DNA from: a bacterium | GTDB taxonomy: Bacteria; SM23-81; DAOVCL01 | Assembly: GCA_029932675.1 (NCBI GenBank) | Contig: JAOZPP010000015.1 | Span: 1 to 50,837 of the forward strand | Length of the DNA stretch: 50,837 nucleotides | Reading direction: 5' to 3' | Shown here: one piece after another, positions 18,232 through 32,540 of the stretch | Numbering within the stretch: position 1 is the first letter of the stretch | Layout: each line of letters begins with the position of its first letter | Notes under the pieces: generated by a model | What the model was told of the DNA's origin: nothing | The model's database searches: none | The model's input: only the letters and a program-made list of their open reading frames with translations | Translations under genes and position numbers: made by a program

Positions 18232-19032
18232 ATGTGGGGAAAACTATTGGTTTGGCTACCTGGCTGCCTTGCACTCCTCTTCTGGGGAGTGCAAACATCA
18301 TCTGCTCATCAATACGAGGAGACCTTAGAAAAGGCTTTCGCTTTTAAGCCTGGGGGAAAGCTCATCTTGATCAACACCAATGGCAAGATCAGCGTTGGAG
18401 TGTGGGACAAGGAAAAGATCCTCTTGCGGGCAGAGCTGAAGATCGAGGCCCAGACTCCGGAAGAGGCAAAACGGATAGCGGAAAAGGCGATAGAGATCGA
18501 TCTCACGGATACAGAAATTGAGATTAAGACGAAGAGGGAGAAGGCCACCAGCCTATGGAAGTTGCTCTTTGGGAAGGAGGAAAAGCCAAAGGTGCGGAGG
18601 ATGAACTACGAGCTCACCTTGCCCAGAAAAATTGATCTGGATATGAGGACGGTAAACGGAGGGATCGGTATAGCCGATATCCAGGGGAGAATAGAGGTGA
18701 GGACCACCAACGGGGGGATAGACGTCTCTGGGGTCTCCGGTTTTATCAATGCCCGGAGTACAAACGGGGGGATTAGGGCGGAGCTAAGGAAGGCCGATCC
18801 CCAGGGGTCGATCTCCCTCACCACTACCAACGGGGGAATAAGGCTATCTCTGCCCCAGTCTATTAAGGCAGAGATCTTAGCCAAGACGGCCAATGGGAGG
18901 ATTCACACCGATCTTCCCCTGGAGGTCCAGGGAAGCTTTAGCGGTGGGCGGATTAAGGGGAAGATCAATGGAGGAGGGACCCTAATTGAGCTCCATACAG
19001 CCAATGGAGGAATAGATATCCTATCCCAATAG
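18232..19032 (+). CDS. DUF4097 beta-solenoid surface protein, TNGG-repeat type
   Basis: 266 residues with a signal peptide (LLVWLPGCLALLFWGVQTSSA). A short alpha/beta N-terminal part carries charged helices (TPEEAKRIAEKAIEIDL). From about 138, units of about 18 residues begin with (T/V)NGGI, predicting a right-handed beta-helix. It is the paralogue of 12683-13735, but with asparagine-glycine turns instead of serine-glycine-aspartate. Start ATG follows AAGGGGGA. It lies 14 bases before the M1 peptidase gene and is probably co-transcribed. Confidence 0.87.
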   Translation: MWGKLLVWLPGCLALLFWGVQTSSAHQYEETLEKAFAFKPGGKLILINTNGKISVGVWDKEKILLRAELKIEAQTPEEAKRIAEKAIEIDLTDTEIEIKTKREKATSLWKLLFGKEEKPKVRRMNYELTLPRKIDLDMRTVNGGIGIADIQGRIEVRTTNGGIDVSGVSGFINARSTNGGIRAELRKADPQGSISLTTTNGGIRLSLPQSIKAEILAKTANGRIHTDLPLEVQGSFSGGRIKGKINGGGTLIELHTANGGIDILSQ

Positions 19033-19045
19033 GTGGAGGAGAGAG

Positions 19046-21970
19046 ATGGCCAAAAGAGTATTCCTTTATATCCTCTTTACCCTTTTCCTTGTGGCCCGCT
19101 CAGGCTTAGCTTGGCAGCAAAGGGTAGATTATCGGATTAAGGTGCAACTGAATACCAAGCTTCATATGCTCCAGAGGGAGGAGACCTTAATCTACACCAA
19201 CCAATCGCCGGACACCCTTCATTGGGTCTGGTTCCACCTCTACCCCAATGCTTACCGAGATAATCAGACCGTCTTTGCCCGCGAACAGAGGAGGATGGGC
19301 TCCAGCCGCTTCGCCTTAGCCACCTCTGGGGAGAGGGGTTACATCGAAATCGATTCCCTATTGGCCGATGGGATAAAACCAAAGAGGGAGTTCAAAGAGG
19401 ACGACGGGACCGAGCTAAAGGTTTACCTCCCCCACCCCCTCCTCCCAGGCAATTCGCTCTGCTTCTGCATCGGGTTTCGGGTGAAGATCCCCCATATTTT
19501 CTCCCGCCTGGGCCACAAGGGAAGGCACTACGAGATCACCCAGTGGTATCCCAAAATCGCCGTCTATGATCAATGGGGATGGCATCCCGATGGTTACCAC
19601 GCCATCGGGGAGTTCTATGGGGAATACGGCAACTTCTTGGTAGAGATTACCCTTCCTGCAGATATGACCGTGGGGGCCACCGGGGAACTCATTGGCCCCC
19701 CTGAGGAGGTGGCCAGGTTAAACTACCTGGCCCTCCAGGGGGCCAATCTGGATAGTTTAAGGGCAAGGGGAGAGAAGAAGAAGAAGATCAAAAAAATCAT
19801 CAGGTTCCTCGGGAAAAGGAGAGAGCCGGCTGCGGAGCTCAAAACCTTGGTCTTCCGCGCCCAGAGGGTGCACGACTTCGCCTGGTTTGCCGATGCGCGG
19901 TTCATCCTCAAAAGGGCCAACTACCAAGGGGTGACCATAAATGTCCTCGTCCTCCCTCAAGATGAGGAGAGATGGAAGGATGTGCTTGAATGGGTGCGAG
20001 ATACACTCAAATATTATGGCAACTGGTATGGGAGATACCCCTATCCCCAGATCACGGTAGTGGACGGAAGCTTGGCCGCCGGAGGGGGGATGGAGTATCC
20101 CAATGTGGTGGTGATCTCCCTTCGGCCACTATCCTGGACAAGGGTATTGGAAGAGGTGGTGATGCATGAGGTAGGCCATCAATGGTTCTATGGGATATTG
20201 GGTTCAAATGAGATGGACGAGGCCTGGCTTGATGAGGGAATAAACACCTTCTCCGAGATCAGGTATATGGAGGCTAAATACGGCCGAGAGGAGAACCTCT
20301 TCTCCTGGCCCAAAAGGTTGAGGTTTTTGCCCAACATTGGCGACCGCTGGACGCAGACCTTCCTCTATTGGTTGACGGCAACCAATGGGGTGGAAAAGTC
20401 CACCCTCACCCCCTCTTATAGCTTCATAGACGAGCCCTTGGCCTACCAAGTGGGTACTTATGCCAAACCTGCCTGGATGATGTTTATGCTCAAGTATCTG
20501 GTAGGGGACGAAGTATTCGATCGGATTATGCAGACCTATTTCCGCAGATATAGGTTTAAGCATCCCCATACAGAGGACTTCATCGCAGTGGCCGAGGAGG
20601 TTAGCGGCCAGGATCTAAAATGGTTCTTCAGCCAATGGTTGGAGACCACCAAGACCTGTGATTATGCAATTACCAAGCTCAAAACCCGGCGGGAGGCAGG
20701 TCTCTTTAAGACAGAGGTGGTGGTGGAGAGAAAGGGAGAGGCGGTTATGCCTATAGAGGTTTGTCTTCAGGCTGCGGAGGGAGAGAAGGTCATCCAGCAC
20801 TGGGATGGAAGGGGGAAGAGGACAAAGATCCATTTCCAGACGAGGTCCAGGCCGAAGTGGGCTCAAATCGACCCGGGATGGGGACTATTGGAGGTAGATC
20901 GCTGGAACAACCGCAAGCCTCAGAAGGTGACTATCCATCCGATCTTTGACTTTCCGGACTTCGATAGTTATCAAATCTTCTACGGCCCCTCCCTCTGGTT
21001 TGATCGGGTCGACGGGGCTACCCCTGGGTTATGGCTTCAGGGAAGGCAATTCTTAGATTTCGGCCCTTTTAAAGGGAAAAACCAGTGGATGTTGGGCACA
21101 TCTTGGGGGATAAGGAGCCACGTCTTAAACTGGAAGGCAAGCTATCATACCCCTCTTCCCTTAGGGGGAAGGTGGTCGAGGATCCACCTTCAGGCCAGCC
21201 GTTACCATGGCCGGATATCCTCTTCTGTAGGTTTGAGCTGGCACTTCAGCCCCCACCTCCTCCTGGGCCCAGCACATGAGCTCAGCCTAAAAGGCGAATA
21301 CCTCAAGGTGGAGAACAGGAAATATGTCTATAGGGACGACTGGTCTCCCGGGAAGGTGATCGGACCCGCCATCGACTATTCCTTCTCCTTCCCCGGCATC
21401 CACTTCTTTGGCAAATGGAACTTCTCCCTGAAGTTAGGCCGAAAGGTCTGGGGCGGGGAATACCACTTCAATAAGAGGAGTTTGGAATTAAGGAATAGGC
21501 TCAGGTGGACCAGATGGCTCAATGTGGGACTGAGAACCTTCACCGGATATGTGGGGGGTTCACCTCCCAATCAAGAGCTATTCTTCCTCTCCGGGGGCAC
21601 GGCCCTCACCCCTGGCCATGGGATAATCTGGGAGGAAAAAGGGCGGCTCTCCCCCCAGGAACATCTCTTCGTTAGCGGGGACGGAAATCTGAGGGGATAC
21701 TACGGTCAGCATCTAAAAGGGAAGGCCATCTGGGCCATCAACCTCTCCCTTCCCTTCCCCCATACCCCGCTTTTCTGCTTCTGGGATATGGGGAATGTGG
21801 GATCTAAGCATTCCCTGCGGTCCGCAAGGATGGACTCCGGAATAGGGATGAGGTTTGGTCCCCTGCGGGCGCAGTTTCCCTTCTGGATAAACCGCCCACC
21901 AAGGGGGGAAAGAAAATTTACCTTCCGCTGGCTGGTTGACTTAAACCTCCGCACCCTGGTATCATTTTAG
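19046..21970 (+). CDS. M1-family metallopeptidase fused to Omp85-like beta-barrel
   Basis: 974 residues with a signal peptide (LYILFTLFLVARSGLAW). Residues about 25-560 are an M1 aminopeptidase-like unit: GGGMEYP (near 347), HEVGH zinc motif (374-378) and third ligand in DEGIN (Glu397). After a beta domain (to about 635), the last 340 residues alternate polar and aromatic strands. They contain Omp85/BamA-like signatures: GDGNLRGYYGQHLKGKAIW, a FWDMGNVG strand and a closing GIGMRFGPLRAQFPF block, ending in phenylalanine as outer-membrane barrels do. ATG follows GGAGGAG. This suggests a peptidase held at or passed through its own outer-membrane barrel, like type Vd proteins. M1 assignment is strong; the barrel assignment comes from motif reading. 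Confidence 0.88.
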   Translation: MAKRVFLYILFTLFLVARSGLAWQQRVDYRIKVQLNTKLHMLQREETLIYTNQSPDTLHWVWFHLYPNAYRDNQTVFAREQRRMGSSRFALATSGERGYIEIDSLLADGIKPKREFKEDDGTELKVYLPHPLLPGNSLCFCIGFRVKIPHIFSRLGHKGRHYEITQWYPKIAVYDQWGWHPDGYHAIGEFYGEYGNFLVEITLPADMTVGATGELIGPPEEVARLNYLALQGANLDSLRARGEKKKKIKKIIRFLGKRREPAAELKTLVFRAQRVHDFAWFADARFILKRANYQGVTINVLVLPQDEERWKDVLEWVRDTLKYYGNWYGRYPYPQITVVDGSLAAGGGMEYPNVVVISLRPLSWTRVLEEVVMHEVGHQWFYGILGSNEMDEAWLDEGINTFSEIRYMEAKYGREENLFSWPKRLRFLPNIGDRWTQTFLYWLTATNGVEKSTLTPSYSFIDEPLAYQVGTYAKPAWMMFMLKYLVGDEVFDRIMQTYFRRYRFKHPHTEDFIAVAEEVSGQDLKWFFSQWLETTKTCDYAITKLKTRREAGLFKTEVVVERKGEAVMPIEVCLQAAEGEKVIQHWDGRGKRTKIHFQTRSRPKWAQIDPGWGLLEVDRWNNRKPQKVTIHPIFDFPDFDSYQIFYGPSLWFDRVDGATPGLWLQGRQFLDFGPFKGKNQWMLGTSWGIRSHVLNWKASYHTPLPLGGRWSRIHLQASRYHGRISSSVGLSWHFSPHLLLGPAHELSLKGEYLKVENRKYVYRDDWSPGKVIGPAIDYSFSFPGIHFFGKWNFSLKLGRKVWGGEYHFNKRSLELRNRLRWTRWLNVGLRTFTGYVGGSPPNQELFFLSGGTALTPGHGIIWEEKGRLSPQEHLFVSGDGNLRGYYGQHLKGKAIWAINLSLPFPHTPLFCFWDMGNVGSKHSLRSARMDSGIGMRFGPLRAQFPFWINRPPRGERKFTFRWLVDLNLRTLVSF

Positions 21971-21989
21971 AGGGATGGGGCCAAACCTC

Positions 21990-22480
21990 TCCCCAAAAAT
22001 CAAACCCTTATCAGGTAAATTGGATGGTTGCTGGAAAGGCTTCTACTCTCTCCATCCAATGACAATTCAAGCCGGTAACATCCCCCGGATATTAAACAGA
22101 GCGTGGACGATGATGGCTGGTATCAGGCCCTTCACCATATGGCCACAGGAAAGGAGCGTCCGCAGAGGCCCGGGGTAAGCACCTCCTCGCATACGGTGGC
22201 GTAGATCCAAATGAACGCGACAAGCTGGAGCTTGGTCTATAGCACCGCTAAAGTTTCATCATCTCCTGGATGGAGTATGGCTGGCAGTGAGAGGGCAGCA
22301 ATGGGAAGCACCAACAGCAGAAAGTTAACTTAAATCGGTACGTCCCCCTGATCAGACCGAAAAGACCAAGGCGGCCTCGAGAGATAACCAGCATGATGAC
22401 AAGAGAGAGACCGAGCATTACCGAACGTCTAACAAATGAACTGGGCAAAACACTGCCACTGGGAAGTGACACCTTTTGTC
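21990..22480 (-). pseudogene. Possible relic of a CPBP intramembrane protease
   Basis: No intact gene lies between 21971 and 22551. In one minus-strand frame around 22150-22230 I read LVAFIWIYATVCEEVLTPG, which matches the CPBP (Abi) core with its EE pair, but the usual arginine is replaced by proline. Hydrophobic segments continue in other frames toward 22470, so at least two frameshifts would be needed. Weak evidence; it could be chance similarity. Confidence 0.3.
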
Positions 22481-22497
22481 CTAAATACAGTGCGATG

Positions 22498-22547
22498 AGG
22501 GCAACAAACGCTGAAAGACCAAGGATGCAGGAAAACAGCGGTTAGGG
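22498..22547. repeat. Weak attC-like hairpin beside toxin gene end
   Basis: CGCTG (22509-22513) pairs with CAGCG (22536-22540), followed by GTTAGGG (22541-22547), close to the core GTTRRRY. On the minus strand it follows the toxin stop codon by 4 bases, the geometry of a cassette gene and its attC. The stem is short, so confidence is low. Confidence 0.28.
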
Positions 22548-22551
22548 GGAG

Positions 22552-22812
22552 TTAACCCTTCTCTTTAATCATTTGGTCATATTCACTATGGGAACCAACC
22601 CAAACCCAAATAAAATCTTGACCGTCTTTAATTGCGAGCGCTCTATGATTCATTCCAACCCGGACTGACCAAAAATCCCCCACTTTCTTGAAATGAAGGG
22701 AAGGGTGTAAAGGATCTATTTTAAGTAAATCGAAATTCTTTCTCGCGGTTTCTTGCACGGCCGCAGGAAGTCTTTTGAAGCATTTTCGAAAACGGGTAGT
22801 TGTTTTGTGCAT
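22552..22812 (-). CDS. RelE/ParE-like toxin of a type II toxin-antitoxin pair
   Basis: 86 residues. The compact RelE/ParE fold is visible as FRKCFKRLPAAVQ, a basic helix, DPLHPSLHFKKV, FWSVRVGMNHRALAI and the C-terminal WVWVGSHSEYDQMI. In this subfamily the toxin gene directly follows its antitoxin, and here the ATG comes immediately after the antitoxin TAA with no gap. It is probably an mRNA interferase or gyrase poison; which one cannot be told from sequence. The intact frame suggests it is still functional, unlike nearby toxin remnants. Confidence 0.85.
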   Translation of the reverse strand: MHKTTTRFRKCFKRLPAAVQETARKNFDLLKIDPLHPSLHFKKVGDFWSVRVGMNHRALAIKDGQDFIWVWVGSHSEYDQMIKEKG

Positions 22813-23013
22813 TTAGAGTCCCTTCAGCTTTCCGTCTGCTTTTTCAGCAAGGGCTTCCTTGACCAAAAAATCTAACTTTCCTGATTCTGAATCTCCCTCA
22901 ATCTGCCTGTCCCACCTCTCCCAGTCCCTTTCATAAAACCACTCCCTCAAGCGGGTAAATTCTTCTCTCGAGAGAGATTCAATCGAGGATAAGATTTCTT
23001 CTACTTTTGACAT
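22813..23013 (-). CDS. Antitoxin partner of the RelE/ParE-like toxin
   Basis: 66 residues, acidic. The FTRLREWFYERDWERWDRQI segment followed by DSESGKLDFLVKEAL is typical of antitoxins encoded before this toxin subfamily. ATG at 23013 is preceded by GGAGGAG. It would bind and neutralise the toxin and probably repress the operon, although no clear DNA-binding fold is visible in so short a sequence. Confidence 0.8.
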   Translation of the reverse strand: MSKVEEILSSIESLSREEFTRLREWFYERDWERWDRQIEGDSESGKLDFLVKEALAEKADGKLKGL

Positions 23014-23035
23014 AACTGCTCCTCCATTCTTTTTA

Positions 23036-23099
23036 GGGGTTGACGAAAAAGCTCACCGGAGCGCCAACGCACACGCGGGGCGCTGAGTGGAGGTTGGGC
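23036..23099. repeat. attC-like hairpin between toxin-antitoxin operon and ATPase gene
   Basis: AGCGCC (23060-23065) pairs perfectly with GGCGCT (23079-23084). Outer arms (CTCACCGG against GTGGAG) pair imperfectly, and the right end is GTTGGGC (23093-23099), an exact match to core GTTRRRY. On the minus strand it comes after the relE remnant and before the antitoxin gene, as expected for a cassette boundary. Confidence 0.38.
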
Positions 23100-23120
23100 T
23101 GCATAATGTTTGTACTTCGT

Positions 23121-23200
23121 TCACTCTCTTCGATAAATCTCCCGGCGATGACCAATAGCGTGAATCACAATGGTCTCTTCATATCCCAAAGCGCTTCATA
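23121..23200 (-). pseudogene. C-terminal remnant of a RelE/ParE-type toxin gene
   Basis: The minus strand reads EETIVIHAIGHRREIYRRE followed by TGA, a typical RelE/ParE C-terminal strand (IxHxRR-x-YR). Immediately upstream, in another frame, is HEQKLLELLGDFDEG, resembling its missing part or an antitoxin. No complete frame exists. A decayed cassette gene. Confidence 0.45.
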
Positions 23201-23285
23201 AATGATTAGGTAAACCTTCATCAAAATCACCAAGTAGTTCCAGTAGCTTCTGCTCGTGGAGGTGGTCCAACAACCATCCACCGGT

Positions 23286-24722
23286 TCAGACTTGGTCTTT
23301 GCTAATGTACCGACTCTCCCAGTCGAGACGGCGGGGCGGTTCGATATCGGGAATACGGTCCGCGGGGGTAATCTCGCCGATATCCACCGCGCGATGGCTC
23401 AAGCCCCAAGCAACAGCCAGACGGTGATATTCATCCGTTTTGTTGGCGAGCGACTCAGGCACTGGTATGGGCAGGAAAATCGCCCCATTGTTTCTGGCAT
23501 ATCTCCTCAACCAAGCATCTAGTTCTTCAACTGCCGAATGGAAGAATTGCAGCTTGCTACCACCCCCGATCAAAAGGATCGGAAGCCGGCCGTTCCGCCA
23601 GACGGAGGCTTTCGGGTCTCTGTGGATCTTAGCCTCCCAAATAACGCGCTGGAGCATTTTTTGAAATCGTTTCTTAAACTGAGCTTCTGCCTGGGTGAAC
23701 CCCGAGGTGAGTTGCTCCCGCGAAACCAAATACGGTTCGATGTCGTGAGCTATGGGTGCCAAAGGATCGTGTTTGTCTCGTAGATCGTTAGCTTGTTTTT
23801 CGTATACGCGCTTGAGCGCAAGGATCCGTTCGTGGTGGAGACTGATAGTACCAAGAAGCTGAACGTCGGCTGTCAACAGGCTATAACGATCGCTCCCCTC
23901 ACACGCGTGCAGGATGAAGCTACATACATCGACGGTGGAAGCCCCGATGTCGACCATCACATGCAAACCTTCACGGCGAAGCTCGGATAGAGCATAACCC
24001 ACCGCACCAGCAGCAATCTCCGGTATGATATCGAAATCACACGCGAATTTGTTGTCAATATTCCAGTACTCTGGATCGTCCACCCAATTCAACTCAACAC
24101 TTGCCTTCTTAAGCGTGACGCGTTCTCCCCCCAATGTAGAGAGCATCCATCCAGCCCTTCCCACTCGTCGGAAGCGGCGATTCTCTTCGTTGTCCTCTAT
24201 GCACGGAGAAGGAACGCCCAGGTTTACACTCCATCTAAGCCTTTTGAAATGCCGCACAAGATCACGCTTTGTTTCGAGAAACCACTTCCGGGCATACCGG
24301 AGAAGGAACGCGAGGTAAACAGCGGCCGTTTCTTCAGGACGCAATTCCTGTTTGGTAGGACCGCGGTTGCTGTTTAGGTATTCCTCCTTGGAGAAAAGCT
24401 CCAGCTTGATGTCATTAACCAGTCGTGTGCCTTTACGAGGTTCGAGGGTGCACGCCCCATTTGGTGCCACCCATATCCTGGTTGGCGAGAGGTAAGGCAT
24501 TGACTTGGGTGAAAGTTCACCGAAGTCCACAGCATAGGCAGGATGTCCAGGAAGGTCCGGAGCCTGGATCACCACTTTAGACGCGGAGGTGCCAAAGTCA
24601 AGTCCTATGACAAGCTCGCACTCGCCGCTCTGGCCAGGGCAAGCATACTGCAACATGTGCTCGTCGCAGACGGGCATTGATCCCCCATCTCGCTGGTATC
24701 CACCCAAATCCTTCGATGTCAT
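23286..24722 (-). CDS. Actin/Hsp70-fold (ASKHA) ATPase, helicase partner
   Basis: 478 residues from the preferred ATG at 24722, which follows AGAGG six bases upstream and begins 16 bases after the helicase stop. An open extension to 24779 would overlap the helicase. ASKHA nucleotide-binding motifs are clear: phosphate-1 GLDFGTSASKVVI (near residue 40), phosphate-2 MVDIGASTVDV (near 250) and adenosine motif LLIGGGSK (near 375). No Hsp70 substrate-binding domain is present, and the middle part is unlike DnaK, FtsA or ParM. Arginine codons are mostly CGN, as in the helicase but unlike surrounding genes. It probably hydrolyses ATP in a complex with the SNF2 helicase. I do not recognise a named system. 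Confidence 0.85.
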   Translation of the reverse strand: MTSKDLGGYQRDGGSMPVCDEHMLQYACPGQSGECELVIGLDFGTSASKVVIQAPDLPGHPAYAVDFGELSPKSMPYLSPTRIWVAPNGACTLEPRKGTRLVNDIKLELFSKEEYLNSNRGPTKQELRPEETAAVYLAFLLRYARKWFLETKRDLVRHFKRLRWSVNLGVPSPCIEDNEENRRFRRVGRAGWMLSTLGGERVTLKKASVELNWVDDPEYWNIDNKFACDFDIIPEIAAGAVGYALSELRREGLHVMVDIGASTVDVCSFILHACEGSDRYSLLTADVQLLGTISLHHERILALKRVYEKQANDLRDKHDPLAPIAHDIEPYLVSREQLTSGFTQAEAQFKKRFQKMLQRVIWEAKIHRDPKASVWRNGRLPILLIGGGSKLQFFHSAVEELDAWLRRYARNNGAIFLPIPVPESLANKTDEYHRLAVAWGLSHRAVDIGEITPADRIPDIEPPRRLDWESRYISKDQV

Positions 24723-24738
24723 CTGAACCTCTGTGATC

Positions 24739-27700
24739 TCATTCAACCAGGATGATAGCAATGGCGATCTCCCGAGCATCTGATCGGACCTTACGCCGAC
24801 TCTCGATTCTCAAGCGTTGCTGTTCAACACGGTTGCGCAGGGCGCGGATCCGTCCCTCAGTGGCCTTCACAAGTGAGTCGCGACCATGGGCACGGTGTCT
24901 CTCTAAGATTTCCTCTAGCTTCGCCAATTGCTGCCGGAGGTGTTGCTCCAGAGTGCGAAGCTGAATATCGGCTCGGTCTTCATTCTTCGCCTTCAGCTCC
25001 CGACTGAAGATCTTGTATTCCTCATCGAGGTTACCAAAAAGTACCTCGTTAGCAACATGATACGCCCGTTTGAAATCAACCACATTGCGCGCCTCGAGCC
25101 AGTCCTCCCCGTTGGTCACGGCGGCAACCGCTATCTTCTCTGCAATCTCAGATTCGAGCAGTACATCTGGTCTGTCGAGCGCCGTCGCGGCGTATGCCAG
25201 CTTCTCAATATCCTGTAAACCTCGAAAAGACCAAAGCGCTATGGCCAAAACATACATGCCCGCTCGGACCGGGAGATCAACGGCAGCACCACTCAAAGTC
25301 AGCGCAACTGCGGGGGTGAGCTGCTCTGCGCTTTCTTCGATACGGGTACTCACCATTCTTACGAGCGGATGGAACTGCGAGATCACCTCTTCGGATCGAC
25401 TGCTTGGACCCCCCATGCGATTTTCGAATCGACACCGGACAGGCCGGGAGGAAATCGACGTGAGCCTTGTGGAGAACGAAAGTCGTTTTTGCCTGATAAA
25501 CTCCGCTAGATCGAACTTCGCCTTATCCGATAGTTCGACCTCAAACACAGGAGAGCCTGGCTGTGTCTGGCGCAGCTCGCATCCTGGGAAGTGGAGTCGG
25601 AGGTAATCGAAAACGTATCGCCGGATGTCGTCTCCGCTGATCCAGCGATGTAGCTCGCGCGCCGCATGAATTTGGTTCAAGATGTAGTCGCCGTACGCAA
25701 TGAGATTCGCCGCATTGTCCTCGAGTCGCTGCTCTTCGAGCCGGATATTCTCTAGCGCCTGGGTAGTCTGATCGATCCGTTGCTCTTGCTGCTCTGGCGT
25801 CAAATAACCAGAGAGCAAATCGATTTCCAGCTTGCGTATCTTGTCCCCGAGAATGGCTTCGAAGTCACCCAGAGCTTTGCGACAGAGGTCAAGCTTCTCG
25901 TAAAGACGCCTATAGATTCGAGCATCTATGGTGTTCTCGTAAAGGATGTTCCAGATAATGACCTTGTCGGCCTCCTGGCCAAGTCGGTCAATACGCCCGA
26001 TGCGTTGCTCCAGGCGCATGGGGTTCCACGGAAGGTCATAGTTGATAACGACGCGAGAAAACTGCAGATCGACACCTTCACCGCCAACCTCAGAGGAAAG
26101 TAAGACACTCGGTCCATCAGGTTGGCTGAACCGGAAAATTGTCTCTTCCTTTGTTTCTCTCTGTCCTCCCTTGAGCTGGATGCACGAGACGCCATCCCCC
26201 TTAAGCCGTTCAGCGAGGTAGTCCAGCGTTGCGCGAAAGGCGGAGAAAACTACCACTTTCTCCCGTGGGTGTTCCCGCAGAAAGTTAGTAAGGATGTGCT
26301 TAAGGCGACTGTACTTACTGTCGGCCTCGATCAATCGGTTGAGTTCCACATAGTCCAAGGACCGACGCACGATCTCTGTAACCAAGGGGCCTAGCTCCGT
26401 TCGCCGCTCCTCATCCTCTTCAGCCTCTCCGGTTTCCTCAGACTCCTCCAACTCGATTAGCCTGTTCTGCCACAAGCGAAGCGAGGCGGCCATGCTGCTC
26501 GTCATCTGTCGCTGCGGCTGAACTAACAGGAAGCGCTGGTTCGCATACCGCTGGAGTGCGTACTCGATGACAACCTCAGTGACGAGATTGTAAAAGTTCT
26601 CTTCGACCGGCTTGAGCTCGACGAACTCGGCAATGGGTTCTCTGATGACCCGCCATTCCTTCACATCCCTTTTGCGCGTCCTCGTCACCACGTGGGCTAG
26701 GAGATTCACCGTCTCAAGACGATAAGCCAACCGGCTTCGAATGTCGCGACGTCTCAAATGTTCTGGCACAAGGTGGATTTCCTCGATCATCGCCAACTGG
26801 CGGTTCGACCGGAGAAGAGGATGGCAGCGTGCTCTCTGCAATAGCTTGCGTAACTTGTGGGCATCGAGGTTAGATCCAAGCACGAGATCGCGAGCTTTCA
26901 CTAGCGGGGCATTGGCTTCCAGTATCTGTGAAAAAACCTCCGGCCTTGTGAAGGTGTCTGGATCTAGAAGGCGAAGAAGGTAGAATAGGTCATCGTTGCG
27001 ATTGTGGATAGGAGTCGCTGTCAGGAGGATCGTATACTCCGACACGTTCTTGCATAGCTGTCCGAGCTCGTTAGTTTGCGTTTCCGGGTTTCGTAGATGG
27101 TGCGCCTCATCGATCACCAGGAGGTCTACCAGCCTGTCCTCGCTCTCCATGGATCTAAGAAAACGTGCAAGATCAGTGGCAGATCTCTTATTATTGTTCC
27201 CCTCCCATCCCCGTGGCGGCCGAAGTCCCTGAATGCTAGCGATAACGGCGAAGCCTAGCGACTGCGAGTCCTCGTCTCGCAGTGTGTCCAGCACCTCTCG
27301 AGCGTCACAGATCTGAGCCATAACCCCAAACTTCACTGAAAGCTCACGGTACCACTTATCGCGCAGCGACGCTGGGCAGAGCACCAAAAGTCTGCGCATA
27401 TCAAATCGACTCCGCAATTCGGTCCAGATAAGTCCAGCTTCGATAGTCTTGCCGAGACCAACTTCATCCGCGATGAGGATACCGTTCGAGGGCGACTCGA
27501 GCAGTTTCACCACGGGTTTGAACTGGTAAGCATAGAAGTCGGTGTTGGTCGCCTCCATGCTATAGATTACGTCAGCCAAGCGCCCTGACAGCTTCACGTG
27601 CGTCAGCGTGCGTCGGAGATCGACCGGTCGTCCTAGCTTTTTTGCTTCCAACATGTCCAGCGGTGATAGCCTAAGATCACTGACGCGTTCAAGCTGGCTC

Positions 27701-27870
27701 TCCGGAATCCAGCGGACGCCATCAGCGAACTGGACCTGAAGCAGACGGCGGTTCCGCCGCGTCTGCTCCCGGCCGGTTAGCACCCCGACCCGCGTCGGGT
27801 CGTTCACCAGTCGTACGCGACTGGGCTCGAGCATTCTAGTACCCTGGTTCTCGTACATAAGTACCACCAC
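24739..27870 (-). CDS. SNF2/RapA-like ATPase-helicase
   Basis: About 1040 residues. GTG at 27870 or the in-frame ATG at 27858 may be the start; neither has a strong ribosome-binding site. An SH3/Tudor-like N-terminus (VQFADGVRWIPESQLERV, about 46-63) precedes the SNF2 core: motif I ADEVGLGKTIEAG (134-146), DEAHH, LLTATPIHN, then the second lobe with SSEVGGEGVDLQFS and QRIGRIDRLGQ. A long coiled C-terminus (EEILERHRAHGRDSL and similar) ends the protein. The layout resembles RapA/HepA and the SNF2 proteins of defence systems such as DISARM DrmD. It translocates on double-stranded DNA, or remodels proteins bound to it. Arginine codons are mainly CGN, so transfer is likely. It forms an operon with the ASKHA ATPase. 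Confidence 0.9.
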   Translation of the reverse strand: MVVLMYENQGTRMLEPSRVRLVNDPTRVGVLTGREQTRRNRRLLQVQFADGVRWIPESQLERVSDLRLSPLDMLEAKKLGRPVDLRRTLTHVKLSGRLADVIYSMEATNTDFYAYQFKPVVKLLESPSNGILIADEVGLGKTIEAGLIWTELRSRFDMRRLLVLCPASLRDKWYRELSVKFGVMAQICDAREVLDTLRDEDSQSLGFAVIASIQGLRPPRGWEGNNNKRSATDLARFLRSMESEDRLVDLLVIDEAHHLRNPETQTNELGQLCKNVSEYTILLTATPIHNRNDDLFYLLRLLDPDTFTRPEVFSQILEANAPLVKARDLVLGSNLDAHKLRKLLQRARCHPLLRSNRQLAMIEEIHLVPEHLRRRDIRSRLAYRLETVNLLAHVVTRTRKRDVKEWRVIREPIAEFVELKPVEENFYNLVTEVVIEYALQRYANQRFLLVQPQRQMTSSMAASLRLWQNRLIELEESEETGEAEEDEERRTELGPLVTEIVRRSLDYVELNRLIEADSKYSRLKHILTNFLREHPREKVVVFSAFRATLDYLAERLKGDGVSCIQLKGGQRETKEETIFRFSQPDGPSVLLSSEVGGEGVDLQFSRVVINYDLPWNPMRLEQRIGRIDRLGQEADKVIIWNILYENTIDARIYRRLYEKLDLCRKALGDFEAILGDKIRKLEIDLLSGYLTPEQQEQRIDQTTQALENIRLEEQRLEDNAANLIAYGDYILNQIHAARELHRWISGDDIRRYVFDYLRLHFPGCELRQTQPGSPVFEVELSDKAKFDLAEFIRQKRLSFSTRLTSISSRPVRCRFENRMGGPSSRSEEVISQFHPLVRMVSTRIEESAEQLTPAVALTLSGAAVDLPVRAGMYVLAIALWSFRGLQDIEKLAYAATALDRPDVLLESEIAEKIAVAAVTNGEDWLEARNVVDFKRAYHVANEVLFGNLDEEYKIFSRELKAKNEDRADIQLRTLEQHLRQQLAKLEEILERHRAHGRDSLVKATEGRIRALRNRVEQQRLRIESRRKVRSDAREIAIAIILVE

Positions 27871-28031
27871 ATGGCGGTATTACACTATATCTAACGCTGT
27901 TGGTCCGTCTAACGACCAACCTCACCTGCTGCTATGAGACTAGACCAAAGGCCGCGACGGAATACCGGTCAAGTGGAGCCATTTGCTCGACCTTTTATCC
28001 TGCATTCAAGGTCTACAAAATCCTTTTTGCA

Positions 28032-28222
28032 CTATTTTATCGGTTTTACACCTAAATCCTTGCATATTTTTCTGACCAGTAGACCCCTTATCTCAGAATG
28101 CTTTGGAACAGAAGACTGTCTATTCAAGGCAGGATTATGCCACCATGAATGTTTGGTCCCCTCCCCTCAAAAGCTTACATCCTTAGCTATACAGGTACTT
28201 AACAATCCGCCCTCTCCCATAC
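28032..28222 (-). pseudogene. hicA: hicA toxin remnant (nonsense plus frameshift)
   Basis: One minus-strand frame gives GTKHSWWHNPALNRQSS continuing to VPKHSEIRGLLVRKICKDLG, then KPIK and a stop. This is the standard HicA C-terminal half, including the catalytic-type histidine in TKHSWW. The N-terminal half (VKYLYS, stop, GCKLLR) is in another frame. One extra G near 28160 and a TAA replacing the usual CAA break the gene. HicA toxins are mRNA-cleaving double-stranded-RNA-binding-fold proteins. Inactive here. Confidence 0.7.
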
Positions 28223-28409
28223 AGCTTTACGATAATCGTTTCCAGCAACAGCCAGTGCGTCCTTACGATTAAATTCCAAGGCTTCCCTTAGGGTTACTTC
28301 TAAACTCCCTTTCAATTCCTCATAGGTTTTTTTCCTGACAATTAACCCCAGGCACTTCTTCAATCCAGCCAATCCCCCCTTCCCCTTCCTGCTTTATAGC
28401 CGCTGTATA
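28199..28409 (-). pseudogene. hicB: hicB antitoxin remnant (frameshifted)
   Basis: The minus strand reads YTAAIKQEGEGG then GIGWIEEVPGVNCQE, a good HicB N-terminus. One extra A in a run of A residues shifts the frame before TYEELKGSLEVTLREALE, the usual HicB helix. The start codon is also lost (TAA precedes TAT). It overlaps the hicA remnant in normal hicBA order on this strand. It begins 7 bases after the GTTAGCG end of an attC-like hairpin. Confidence 0.68.
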
Positions 28410-28415
28410 TTACGT

Positions 28416-28476
28416 CGCTAACATTGCGAGTCTGCGGCGTGGCGAAGCCGCGTCTGGAGCATCCGCTTGTTGTGTG
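28416..28476. repeat. attC-like hairpin next to hicB remnant
   Basis: CGCTAAC (28416-28422) and GTTGTGT (28469-28475) sit at the ends. The inner stem is GCGGC (28434-28438) with GCCGC (28447-28451). Outer arms ACATTGCGAG and AGCATCCGCTTGTT pair imperfectly. Length (about 60), asymmetric bulges and end motifs fit integron attC sites, although neither core is an exact match. Confidence 0.42.
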
Positions 28477-28577
28477 CATCCTAAATCAAGGCGGCTCTAC
28501 TGCACAAGCCCTGCACGCCTCCCATTCACGAGTTCTATTCCTGTTTTTTCCGCTGAAGAGTATCGAAGTTACTATCA

Positions 28578-28630
28578 GGCCCAAACCCAGTCCTGAAAGA
28601 AGGCAGACCGCTTATATGGTTTGTTAGGCC
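28578..28630. repeat. attC-like inverted repeat overlapping relE-type stop codon
   Basis: GGCCCAAACC (from 28578) pairs with GGTTTGTTAGGCC (28618-28630), allowing a three-base bulge. The right core GTTAGGC (28623-28629) is exact. On the minus strand the stop codon TAA of the toxin gene lies inside GCCTAAC, an arrangement often seen where a cassette gene runs into its attC. An identical GTTAGGC occurs at 29191, 568 bases away. Confidence 0.42.
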
Positions 28631-28929
28631 AGAATCCTTAAATATCTATCTATATCCATTGCTCCGTGAAATACGCCCAAAATATCAATCATCTCTTTAT
28701 TCCTGATGAGATATGCAATACGATAATGTCCATATAGGAGAACCCTGATTTCTCCTTCAGGTTCTGTTCTATACTTATACCCAATCTCTGGAAAATCCTT
28801 AAGAATCTGTGTCTTCCTATAAATTCCAGATACAACCTCCTGTGCAGCATTCACACTGGCCTTGGAAATGTAGTCATAGATTTCCCTTAGCCATCTTTCA
28901 GCTTCTTGAGTCCACCTTATTTTTGCCAT
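28624..28929 (-). CDS. ParE/RelE-family toxin
   Basis: 101 residues. The ParE signature is complete: WTQEAERWLREIYDYISKAS, the PEIGYKYR loop, EIRVLLYGHYRIAYLI and VFHGAMDIDRYL. It overlaps the antitoxin gene by 13 bases, so translation is coupled. It would poison DNA gyrase (ParE) or cleave mRNA (RelE); sequence alone does not decide. It lies between two attC-like sites, consistent with a mobile cassette. The frame is intact. Confidence 0.9.
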   Translation of the reverse strand: MAKIRWTQEAERWLREIYDYISKASVNAAQEVVSGIYRKTQILKDFPEIGYKYRTEPEGEIRVLLYGHYRIAYLIRNKEMIDILGVFHGAMDIDRYLRILA

Positions 28930-29102
28930 GAACGAATACGCTGCTCCATTTCTTCATTATTAATTAATTTATCCTTGCGGGAATCATCTAAGCCCCTTTC
29001 GATCATCCGTTCAAATGCAAGTTCTCGCATTATTTCCTCATACGATGCGTCTTCAGGTTGTTCTTGTATAATTTTTGCCATTACCTCTTTCGCCTTGGCC
29101 AT
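28917..29102 (-). CDS. Antitoxin partner of the ParE/RelE-family toxin
   Basis: 61 residues from ATG at 29102, which follows GAGGAGGTC at ideal spacing. The frame is open 14 codons further upstream, but that part runs into the attC-like hairpin. MAKAKEVMAKIIQEQP and ASYEEIMRELAFERMI with an acidic C-terminal part fit small antitoxins that precede ParE toxins. It is expected to neutralise the toxin and autorepress. Confidence 0.8.
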   Translation of the reverse strand: MAKAKEVMAKIIQEQPEDASYEEIMRELAFERMIERGLDDSRKDKLINNEEMEQRIRSWQK

Positions 29103-29129
29103 CTCTGACCTCCTCGTATAATATGTTTT

Positions 29130-29197
29130 GCCGTTTAAGTTCACTACCGCTGTGGAAGGCCAGCGGAACAGTGGTTCAGTGCACCGCCATGTTAGGC
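29130..29197. repeat. attC-like hairpin upstream of antitoxin gene
   Basis: The inner stem CCGCTG (29147-29152) pairs with CAGCGG (29161-29166). Outer arms CACTA and CAGTGG extend it imperfectly. The right end is an exact GTTAGGC core (29191-29197) and the left end GCCGTTTAA is degenerate. On the minus strand the antitoxin ATG follows 28 bases after the hairpin, as expected for the first gene of a cassette. Confidence 0.4.
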
Positions 29198-29314
29198 AAA
29201 AATACTAACTCATTTAAAATACGACTTTTAAAAAGGTGTATCACCTTCTTCAGATAAGGTTTCTTCATACCGTTCGATTAAAAATACCAATAATGAGCCA
29301 GTTAGATAGTTCAA

Positions 29315-29551
29315 TTACATCAAGAACCTGAGGGGGCCAGGCCCTTTAATAAAATCCTCGATATAGCTAACCTCTTGTAACGAGCCATCTATATATGCTC
29401 TCAGCTCAGGAGCCTCATGGGTTTCAAGTAACTTCTCTTTTAGATCGTCATAAAAAATAGAGACTTCATTGTTCCATCCATACCCCCTGTTATGATTACG
29501 CATACAATAGCCAATTTTCTGCCGAAGCCTAGCAGGAAGTGAGATTTTCAA
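29315..29551 (-). CDS. Small hypothetical protein
   Basis: 78 residues from a TTG start with AAAAAGG directly before it, so the start is uncertain. No family recognised. It is charged, with a helical middle (DDLKEKLLETHEAPELRAY). It may be a truncated cassette gene, since it lies between the integrase remnant and the first attC-like site and reads in the same direction as the other island genes. Confidence 0.3.
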   Translation of the reverse strand: MKISLPARLRQKIGYCMRNHNRGYGWNNEVSIFYDDLKEKLLETHEAPELRAYIDGSLQEVSYIEDFIKGPGPLRFLM

Positions 29552-29698
29552 CCTTTTTCATCGATTGCGCGTTCATGGCGTTGCGAGAATATAAATACCA
29601 TTGTTTTTTGCCTATTAAACAATGATTAAATTTGCTTAATGATTGCTTATGTGGTTTCCAGATAACACCCCTTTCCGGTTTTCATTCCGTATAAATCA

Positions 29699-29940
29699 TT
29701 ACAAGGGAATTCCATCAAGCTGTTCCGTTTGAAAGCCTTGCGACCGCACCGGTGCCCTTTTCCATCCCCCCAGAAGGTGCGCTACAAAGGAAGGGCGCAA
29801 CGCGTGGGAGGTGACAAGTTTTGCGTTGCCCGCCTTCTTTACGGCCTGCTGGAAGGCCTTCTGCAGGATGGATTCGTCGGCATGGTGGCAGCTTTCCTCG
29901 CCAGTCTTTGAGTAATCCGGGGAGCAGAGTCACAGGACTT
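29699..29940 (-). pseudogene. Remnant of a tyrosine recombinase, probably integron integrase
   Basis: The minus strand carries SPVTLLPGLLKDW in one frame (29910-29940) and then, in another, CHHADESILQKAFQQAVKKAG followed by TSHALRPSFVAHLL. These match two segments of integron-type integrases: the VTLLP strand, and the HxLRHSFATHLL box with catalytic His and Arg retained. The sequence between them is deleted and the catalytic tyrosine region is lost. It reads on the same strand as the cassette-like genes, whereas most integron integrases are divergent. An ordinary Xer/phage-type recombinase is the alternative. Confidence 0.6.
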
Positions 29941-29949
29941 GGTTCCCTT

Positions 29950-30270
29950 GCCGTCGCGGCTAGCGCAAGCCTACCCTCCGCAGCGACTGTTCCCATCTAT
30001 ACATATGATAGCGAATCCTTCCTCCAGTGTCAAGTCCCCTCTTGTTTTGGGTGCTTAAATTGGTGATAGCCTAAACAGGACATCAGACCCCGTAGGTGAA
30101 CTTAGCTCTCTCCCTCCCCACCCTACACTGCGCCAAAAACACGATTCGGCAAAGTTGTGGTAGGAAAGCCAACCAAACCAGAGGTTGCTGGGCTTGTCCG
30201 CCCTCTTGCCAATGGAGGAAATCCCTTCAATTATCAACCTAAAAAATAGCATTTCCTAAGAAGATTTACC
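29950..30270. other. Intergenic region without supported gene
   Basis: About 320 bases between the integrase remnant and the next promoter. No frame with family resemblance, tRNA or repeat was recognised. It probably marks the outer edge of the accessory island. Confidence 0.4.
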
Positions 30271-30299
30271 TTGACATATTTTTTTGTTTAAGCTATACT
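30271..30299 (+). promoter_or_regulatory. Near-consensus sigma-70 promoter
   Basis: A perfect TTGACA (30271-30276), a 17-base T-rich spacer and TATACT (30294-30299). Start of transcription is expected near 30306, giving a leader of about 23 bases with AGGGAGG before the ATG at 30329. This is the best promoter in the window and should drive the DJ-1/kinase/receiver unit strongly. Confidence 0.8.
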
Positions 30300-30328
30300 G
30301 AGCTAATAAAATCAAAAGGGAGGCTCAA

Positions 30329-30922
30329 ATGGTCAAGAAAATTGTATTTCTCCTTCCCCTTTTTCTCCTGGCCACCTGTGGGGGCAAGAAAGTTCCCCCC
30401 CAAATTGCAGAGGGGAAGAAGGTGGTGATGATCATAGCTCCCAAGAATTTTAGGGATGAGGAGTTATTGAAAACTAAGGATATACTAACCAAGGCGGGAG
30501 CCACCGTTAAAGTAGCCAGCACTTCCCTGGATACGGCCATAGGAATGCTGGGAGCAAGGGTAGGGGTGGATCTTCTGCTGGATTCGTTGAAGGTGGCAGA
30601 TTATGATGGGGTGGTGTTTGTCGGGGGAACAGGGGCCTCCCAGTACTGGGAAGACGTGAAAGCACACTCCATCGCCCAGGAGGCTTACAGATCAGGGAAG
30701 GTACTGGGGGCGATCTGCATAGCCCCGGTTACCTTGGCCAATGCCGGCCTTCTTCAGGGAAAGAAGGCCACGGTTTGGAGATCTGAACAGGGAAAAATCG
30801 AGGCTAAAGGAGCTGTGTACACTGGTTCCCCCGTCCAAGTGGACGGGCGAATTATCACCGCCAACGGGCCAACCGCGGCTGAGGAGTTTGGTAAAGCCAT
30901 CCTCAAGAAGCTTTCCCAGTAA
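30329..30922 (+). CDS. DJ-1/PfpI-family lipoprotein
   Basis: 197 residues. The signal peptide has an LATC lipobox (Cys17), so the mature protein is probably a lipoprotein outside the cytoplasm, unusual for this family. The DJ-1/PfpI fold shows KVVMIIAPKNFRDEEL, YDGVVFVGGTGASQYW and the nucleophile elbow GAICIAP with Cys130. The acidic residue that usually polarises the cysteine would be Glu44-45 in RDEEL. Possible roles are glyoxalase/deglycase, protease-like or redox sensing. It is followed 4 bases later by a histidine kinase, suggesting a signalling link. Confidence 0.9.
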   Translation: MVKKIVFLLPLFLLATCGGKKVPPQIAEGKKVVMIIAPKNFRDEELLKTKDILTKAGATVKVASTSLDTAIGMLGARVGVDLLLDSLKVADYDGVVFVGGTGASQYWEDVKAHSIAQEAYRSGKVLGAICIAPVTLANAGLLQGKKATVWRSEQGKIEAKGAVYTGSPVQVDGRIITANGPTAAEEFGKAILKKLSQ

Positions 30923-30926
30923 GCCT

Positions 30927-32540
30927 ATGTGGGAAACCCCTCTGCTCTGCTGGGAGATAAAGGGGTGTGGCCGGAAGGACTGTCCGGTTTACCATCACCC
31001 TGGGGTCTTCTGCTGGCTAGTCGATGGCAACAGGGAGGAGGAGGGAAAACTTCTCTCCCATTGCCTTCATTGTCAGGTCTTCAAGCTAAGTGTAGAGAGG
31101 GCAATTGGCCGTCGATCCGCTGATCTGGCCCTCTATCAGACAGTTGGCCTCATCCTCCAGCAAATGAAGAACTCAGAGGAGGAGCTAAAGGAGAAAGTTG
31201 TCAGCCTCCAAATCCTAAACCTTGTCACCGGCGCCCTGCAAAGCACCACCAAATTGGAAGAGGTATTGCACATCATCTTAACCGGGGTAACTGCTGGTGA
31301 AGCCTTTGGATTCAATCGTGCCTTTATACTCCTCTTGGATGAGAAAGAGGTGATGCTTAAGGGGGAGATGGCCGTTGGCCCCCTTGATGGGGAGGAGGCA
31401 AAATTCATCTGGCAGCAACTGGAGGAGAAGAAACCCTCCCTTAAAGAACTCCTCTTCCCATCTCCCGAGTCCCATCGGAGTGATGGCTTAAATTCCTTGG
31501 TAAGGAGATTATCCATCCCCGTTCACAACCCAAAAGCTATTGGTTCATCCTTAGTGGAGATGAAGTCCTTTTCCTTAAGGACCCCCGGGGAGCTGAAAGA
31601 CCTGGAGGAGGAGTTCGTTAACCTCTTCGGCAGTCAACCGATGGCAATTGTTCCATTGGTGGCCAAGGATAAGGCAATTGGAGTACTCATTGCAGATAAC
31701 AAATTTACCCAAAAGCCAATACTCGATAGGGATGTTGAACTATTGGAGACATTTGCTCATCAAGCCAGTTTGGCCATCGAGAACTCCCGATTGAACCAGG
31801 AGTTGAAGAGCAGGCTCCGGGAATTGGAGGATTCGGAGAGGCAGTTAAGGAAAAATCAGACCTATCTTTTAAAGACAGAAAGGCTTGCCGCCATAGGGAG
31901 GATGGCAGCTACCGTTGCCCATGAAATCCGCAGTCCCCTTGTCCCCATTGGAGGCTATGCCCGGGCGGCCTTAGAGGACTACGACCGCCAGGAGGTCAAG
32001 AGGGAGGATTTAGAGATAATCGTAGAGGAGGTAGAGAGGCTGGAGAAAATATTGGCCAATATGCTCGATTACTCTAAGGAGACCAAACCCGCACTTGAAG
32101 AGCTTGACCTCAACCTTATCGTAAAGAAGACATTAGAGTTGATGGGAGAGAGGTTCAAAGAAAAAGGGGTTAAGTTAAAAACGGAACTTTCCCCTCAACT
32201 TCCCCCGGTTATGGTGGATGGTGAGCAAATACAGCAAGTTATCCTCAACTTGGTTCACAATGCCTTAGAGGCAATGGAAGAGGGAAGGCTCTCCATCAGA
32301 ACAAAGGTAAAGGAGGATTTCGTCTCCTTAGAGGTTGAGGATACGGGTAGAGGTATTCCCAAGGAGGATATCGATCGCCTCTTCACCCCTTTCTTCTCCA
32401 CTAAACCCAAAGGATCGGGGTTGGGCCTCCCAGTGGCAGAGAAGATAGTTGTGGATCATGGAGGATTTATAGATGTCCAAAGTGAGGTGGGGGTGGGCAG
32501 CAAATTTACCGTTAATCTCCCCTTAAAAACCACCTGGTAA
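30927..32540 (+). CDS. Soluble sensor histidine kinase with two-CW Cys-rich and GAF domains
   Basis: 537 residues from ATG at 30927, just after the DJ-1 stop; the frame is open upstream, but only as a shadow of that gene. The N-terminus has a two-CW type cysteine pattern (CWEIKGCGRKDCP, then CWLVDG and CLHCQVF) that may bind metal or an iron-sulfur cluster. A GAF domain, a coiled linker and HisKA follow, with phospho-acceptor His332 in VAHEIRSP. HATPase_c shows NLVHNALEAM, DTGRGIP and GSGLGLP. No membrane helix, so a cytosolic redox- or ligand-sensing kinase. The single-domain receiver downstream is the likely partner. Confidence 0.92.
   Translation: MWETPLLCWEIKGCGRKDCPVYHHPGVFCWLVDGNREEEGKLLSHCLHCQVFKLSVERAIGRRSADLALYQTVGLILQQMKNSEEELKEKVVSLQILNLVTGALQSTTKLEEVLHIILTGVTAGEAFGFNRAFILLLDEKEVMLKGEMAVGPLDGEEAKFIWQQLEEKKPSLKELLFPSPESHRSDGLNSLVRRLSIPVHNPKAIGSSLVEMKSFSLRTPGELKDLEEEFVNLFGSQPMAIVPLVAKDKAIGVLIADNKFTQKPILDRDVELLETFAHQASLAIENSRLNQELKSRLRELEDSERQLRKNQTYLLKTERLAAIGRMAATVAHEIRSPLVPIGGYARAALEDYDRQEVKREDLEIIVEEVERLEKILANMLDYSKETKPALEELDLNLIVKKTLELMGERFKEKGVKLKTELSPQLPPVMVDGEQIQQVILNLVHNALEAMEEGRLSIRTKVKEDFVSLEVEDTGRGIPKEDIDRLFTPFFSTKPKGSGLGLPVAEKIVVDHGGFIDVQSEVGVGSKFTVNLPLKTTW

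Follow-up and report, generated by a model that had tools for sequence, protein, structure and literature searches.

Two large genes, encoding a SNF2-family helicase and an ASKHA-fold ATPase, lie side by side in the window, by which we mean the whole 50,837-nucleotide stretch of DNA that was analysed (Table 1). Both reading frames are open, as the preliminary description of two large intact genes had stated, and the catalytic motifs are intact. The SNF2 gene is upstream of the ASKHA gene and, as the window ORFs are annotated, the two overlap by 41 nt. The ASKHA protein probably starts at the internal ATG listed in Table 1. This start is the likelier one because GGGGGA lies 5 nt upstream and because the closest homologues begin at the same place in the alignment (with MPIDEHCLQY in L008 and near-identical starts in L009 and L010). 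The arginine codons set both genes apart from their neighbours, as was also noticed earlier, with CGN shares of 0.78 (SNF2) and 0.82 (ASKHA) against 267/742 (0.36) in the other window genes. The accompanying picture of a region full of broken genes survived in part: the flanks (21970-23286 and 27870-30329) carry no long ORF, yet the pair lies between two ParE-type toxin genes, both intact and each accompanied by a candidate antitoxin.

Table 1. Positions of the gene pair, its surroundings in the window and related loci in other genomes.
Feature	Position	Strand	Remarks
SNF2 gene	24739..27870	(-)	1043 aa, open ORF
ASKHA gene	23286..24779	(-)	497 aa as annotated; 463 aa from likely true start 24677
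ParE-like toxin and candidate antitoxin	22552-22812 and 22813-23013	(-)	Pfam ParE_like 3.6e-7; context, outside module
ParE toxin and candidate antitoxin	28624-28929 and 28917-29144	(-)	Pfam ParE_toxin 2.2e-15; context, outside module
Variable stretch containing the pair	21970..30205	.	from nucleotide similarity to same-genus genome G001
SNF2-GHKL pairs	L076:5893-12377, L077:7797-14117, L078:7836-14172, L098, L099, L100, L106
Motorless SNF2-derived protein and ASKHA	L052:8599-11431, L054:3362-6232		cyanobacteria; the 2/68 ASKHA loci without helicase

Nucleotide similarity between the window and a genome of the same genus (G001) covers 18282-21952, where the G001 contig ends, and 30205-32528. 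Since it stops at ~21.95 kb and ~30.2 kb, the pair sits in a species-variable stretch of ~8 kb, and no ASKHA match was found in G001. An empty integration site was sought in G001, but its contigs break off or diverge on both sides, which leaves the boundaries approximate. Direct repeats in the flanks were considered as a target-site duplication and set aside as short and chance-like. No nuclease was found near the pair among the window ORFs.

The SNF2 protein carries the Pfam domains SNF2-rel_dom (7e-26) and Helicase_C (3e-21). Its layout comprises an N-terminal barrel (~aa 15-62), RecA lobes (~110-660), a C-terminal domain (~690-905) and a helical hairpin (~933-1024), and the motifs ADEVGLGKT, DEAH and QRIGRIDRLGQ show little or no variation among 59 homologues. 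The best Foldseek match of its AF2 model (pLDDT 83) was RapA over the full length (6bog, E 4e-34), and RapA also ranked first in a profile search. With two RecA lobes, an intact Walker A (lysine K141), DEAH and motif VI, and RapA-like flanking domains, the protein is the SNF2/RapA-like helicase that had been proposed, and it is expected to translocate on double-stranded DNA.

No Pfam family was found for the ASKHA protein. Its AF2 model (pLDDT 87) matched the DnaK nucleotide-binding domain (NBD) best in Foldseek (5obw, E 2e-11), and the profile search returned DnaK (E 2e-5) together with weak matches to ParM and MamK. The earlier label "Hsp70/actin-fold" is thus upheld for Hsp70, while actin is not the nearest relative. 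Residues G59, D61-T64, K68, K125, E254, D277, G279, G310 and G405-407 do not vary among 59 homologues and cover the phosphate-1, phosphate-2, adenosine and connect motifs of an Hsp70-type NBD, which predicts an active ATPase. After the NBD the model has only a short tail of poor order, with no substrate-binding domain of the kind that follows the NBD in Hsp70 chaperones; the description of a stand-alone ATPase was therefore apt. Docking through a simple tail motif was considered and discarded, the C-terminal tail being just moderately conserved. In cyanobacteria, reversed gene order goes together with long N-terminal extensions of the ASKHA protein (L003, L041, L042, L047, L051, L059, L065, L066 and L069), and these were coiled-coil (SMC-like) where checked.

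Our analysis uncovered a near-absolute association of the two families, seen from both sides. When genome contigs were scanned with an ASKHA alignment, a SNF2 gene adjoined the ASKHA gene in 66 of the 68 loci, counting a few that are cut off by the end of the contig and one that is just a fragment. These loci span about a dozen phyla, with Acidobacteriota, Myxococcota, Gemmatimonadota, Pseudomonadota, Thermodesulfobacteriota, Cyanobacteriota, Spirochaetota, Nitrospirota, Bacteroidota, Omnitrophota and candidate phyla among the bacteria, and a methanogen. Conversely, when the SNF2 profile was run against 1014 genomes of four phyla (399, 386, 115 and 114), all 16 matches above 1100 bits adjoined an ASKHA gene, including 12/12 in genomes that had not been chosen beforehand. 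The family occurs in ~1% of genomes in the sampled phyla. On plasmids, tblastn found ASKHA relatives in six records, and these records also gave the six best full-length SNF2 matches, adjacent in each case. Over 74 loci, including the window and the plasmids, the order was SNF2>ASKHA in 61 and ASKHA>SNF2 in 13 (mostly cyanobacteria), the genes were never on opposite strands (0/74) and the median gap was 12 nt. Pairwise distances of the two proteins were strongly correlated (Mantel r 0.955, reached by 0/5000 permutations), and clustering of the flanking ORFs revealed no conserved third gene, no other cluster being present in more than 8 of 75 loci. In the tree the nearest relative of the window helicase is from an acidobacterium (80%), followed by Myxococcota and Nealsonbacteria; judged by these phylogenies, the pair is horizontally transferred across phyla. 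No match to the family was found in phages, and a fold search of viral proteins returned just Hsp70 homologues of eukaryotic viruses and generic folds, so that a phage-encoded role is not supported. These genetic observations suggest that the two proteins form a physical complex.

SNF2 matches in the range of 510-665 bits, which form a sister clade, were all (7/7) paired with a sacsin-type protein of ~1050 aa (Hsp90-type GHKL; Pfam checked in four) in place of the ASKHA ATPase. This partner is related to Tiamat TmtA and has, at its C-terminus, a zinc-ribbon/HNH-like motif that weakly matches mREase_IV. The sister pair looks like a second unnamed two-gene system, and the swap between an Hsp70-fold and an Hsp90-fold partner suggests selection for an ATP-driven conformational clamp and not for one fold. 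At another locus (L132), a different SNF2 helicase (278 bits) is followed by a weak GHKL match; pairing of SNF2 helicases with GHKL ATPases may extend beyond the sister clade.

In place of the helicase, the remaining two ASKHA loci carry a protein of 457 or 478 aa, immediately upstream of ASKHA. It retains the barrel at the N-terminus and the C-terminal domain of the SNF2 protein but has lost Walker A, motifs III and V-VI and nearly all, or at least most, of the coiled coil, and its DEAH region is degenerate. With 32% identity between the two proteins, this is a maintained gene and not a single deletion. The ASKHA catalytic residues are intact at both loci (position 284 in L052 is E, not D, as in some cyanobacterial homologues), which suggests that ASKHA works with the non-motor parts of the SNF2 protein. 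Both loci are surrounded by metabolic genes, and this derivative may have another, non-defence role. The idea that it is a common cyanobacterial gene was abandoned, as no further motorless pair was found in 367 cyanobacterial genomes, where the matches were full-length helicases only.

To gain insight into the role of the full-length pair, the gene neighborhood was explored. In PADLOC, 313 models were matched by 89 ORFs flanking the pairs and 7 by 89 control ORFs, which were taken from arbitrary regions of genomes that overlap in part with those of the pairs; the models are redundant and one protein can match many, so these counts overstate an enrichment whose direction is clear. Named neighbors include BrxL (L030), PDC-S68 (L061), Mokosh (L006), type I-D CRISPR (L003) and McrBC, Hachiman and AbiE (L002). 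At L008:1722-16205 the SNF2 and ASKHA genes form a superoperon with a DruE3-like helicase, a second SNF2-like helicase and a DrmMI-like methylase. In sphingomonad plasmids and contigs (L004:10282-19947, L007, L045 and L046), ZacA- and ZacB-like genes (PLD domain) come after the pair, joined at most of these loci by a GIY-YIG gene; these loci possibly represent a larger composite system. Location in defence islands combined with horizontal spread is what is seen in anti-phage systems, and it points to a defence role of the pair.

We propose, with a probability of roughly 65%, that the two genes make up a self-contained defence module, spread by horizontal transfer, in which the ASKHA ATPase switches a RapA-type SNF2 motor. 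ASKHA would probably bind the non-motor parts of the SNF2 protein (N-terminal barrel, C-terminal domain) and act as a nucleotide-driven switch or clamp on the translocase. In the mechanism that seems most likely, and by analogy with RapA, which acts on RNA polymerase, the SNF2 protein would engage the DNA of an invader or proteins bound to that DNA, such as complexes for phage transcription or replication, and the ATP state of ASKHA would load, license or lock it. With no nuclease or methylase of its own, the pair might in this way strip or block foreign nucleoprotein complexes. We hold this remodelling step, taken alone, only tentatively, at about one chance in three. More speculative still would be an immunity class of "chaperone-gated SNF2 remodellers", defined by a RapA-type motor, an Hsp70- or Hsp90/sacsin-fold partner and nuclease-free nucleoprotein remodelling.

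The pair could instead be an incomplete system, acting as sensor or recruiter only, with the effector nuclease supplied by neighboring systems or by the host. The zinc-ribbon/HNH-like motif of the sister partner would fit this model, as would the nucleases added at some loci (NERD in L026-L028, PLD and GIY-YIG in Sphingobium). It is nevertheless unlikely, as no nuclease recurs across the loci and the window has none near the pair.

Less likely again is a place for the pair within DISARM, as one of its sub-parts or as an accessory, with the SNF2 protein as a DrmD that works with DrmA and DrmB in cis or in trans and ASKHA as an extra subunit. The PADLOC DrmD model PDLC02623 fits the SNF2 protein end to end (880 bits, residues 19-1040) and is the only model to match its C-terminal third, so that the helicase is not without a family. 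However, the NCBI model DISARM_DrmD (NF038317) gave 416 bits for the window protein, below its cut-off of 610, whereas genuine DrmD proteins score 939-1338. We built a tree of 70 ASKHA-paired and 7 GHKL-paired SNF2 proteins with DISARM DrmD and other SNF2 proteins. The two paired groups lie together on one side of a branch (SH-aLRT 100) that excludes DISARM DrmD, in what is a quick tree with some long branches and an unsure placement of the GHKL-paired L076. The genuine DrmD loci have neither an ASKHA nor a GHKL neighbor. DrmA and DrmB adjoin the pair at 4 of ~75 loci (L025-L028), and none of DrmA, DrmB or DrmMI, which a class 1 DISARM locus should have, was found among the window ORFs. By these sequence comparisons, the window protein is not DISARM DrmD, and many PADLOC "drmD" calls may belong to a separate system. 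The four loci do indicate that the pair can combine with DISARM-like genes and may sometimes need partners. In L026-L028, the pair is directly preceded, within the first 6 kb, by DrmA, DrmB and a NERD-domain protein; these loci may represent a DISARM variant that lacks DrmD proper.

The full-length RapA fold and the Hsp70 fold might also suggest a housekeeping-like pair that recycles RNA polymerase or acts as a chaperone, with no defence role, and the metabolic genes beside the two motorless pairs would agree with this. It is improbable for a family that is found in ~1% of genomes, occurs on plasmids and in defence islands, is absent from a same-genus relative and, in the window, is foreign in codon usage. 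Maintenance of plasmids or mobile elements, by a ParM-type actin-like ASKHA polymer with the SNF2 protein as DNA-bound adaptor, would explain the plasmid copies and the weak ParM and MamK matches, but is very improbable given the Hsp70 NBD as nearest fold and sequence, the many chromosomal loci, the different fold of the GHKL partner and the lack of a conserved third gene, hence of a ParR-like partner.

Returning to the two-gene defence module, no described system matched it among the PADLOC and NCBI models, and no description of a SNF2-ASKHA pair was found in the open-access literature, the scope of our search. We judge the pair to be an unnamed two-gene system, as the preliminary description had suspected. 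Hsp70-fold ATPases, some without a peptide-binding domain, have been described in prokaryotic conflict systems, namely CoCoNuT CnuD (PMC11090510) and GTPase-centred systems (PMC7159879), where they go with McrBC or TRAFAC GTPases and not with a SNF2 motor. GHKL ATPases near SNF2 helicases are known from MORC-like systems (PMC2292703). Because of these precedents, the kind of system, SNF2-based defence, is already known, with a fair chance that the pair is more than another case of it. What stands out is a whole SNF2 clade tied to either of two chaperone-fold ATPases, with ASKHA staying beside a motorless derivative in two genomes.

The SNF2 protein shares with RapA (HepA), the RNA polymerase-associated SNF2 ATPase, the full-length fold including the N-terminal barrel and the C-terminal domains, but is only ~18% identical to it and belongs to a patchy, mobile family that is always found with an ASKHA partner. 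The ASKHA protein has the fold and catalytic residues of the Hsp70/DnaK NBD, from which it differs by its low identity (13-17%), long extra helices before the adenosine motif, the missing substrate-binding domain and the adjoining SNF2 motor. The partner in the sister clade, a TmtA relative in the same position beside the motor, differs from ASKHA in its Hsp90-type fold, its length and its C-terminal motif.

DISARM class 1 DrmD is likewise a SNF2 helicase of ~1050 aa in defence islands; the window clade is separate from it, mostly lacks DrmMI/A/B/C and has an obligate ASKHA partner. The full Azaca set (ZacA, ZacB and ZacC) was not found: weakly matching ZacA/ZacB-like genes, which recall Azaca (ZacABC) and PDC-M27, directly follow the pair in the Sphingobium lineage alone, whereas the window and nearly all other loci are without them. 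PDC-M61B gave only partial matches, at 18 bits with the window protein and no more than 36 bits with relatives, and no match in 249 Pseudomonadota, where the controls were silent as well.

SNF2 motors recur in bacterial immune systems (DISARM, Dpd, Zorya, Azaca and Hma) and, to our knowledge, little is known about their control. The pair would offer a minimal system, of just two proteins, in which to study how a SNF2 motor in defence is driven by a nucleotide switch. In eukaryotic INO80 and SWI/SNF, the SNF2 motor works with proteins of the actin/Hsp70 superfamily. The resemblance is one of analogy, as the prokaryotic case has no nucleosome, and does not imply common descent of the pairing; if the proposed mechanism is right, the pair would be a prokaryotic functional parallel to the eukaryotic SNF2-Arp remodelling complexes.
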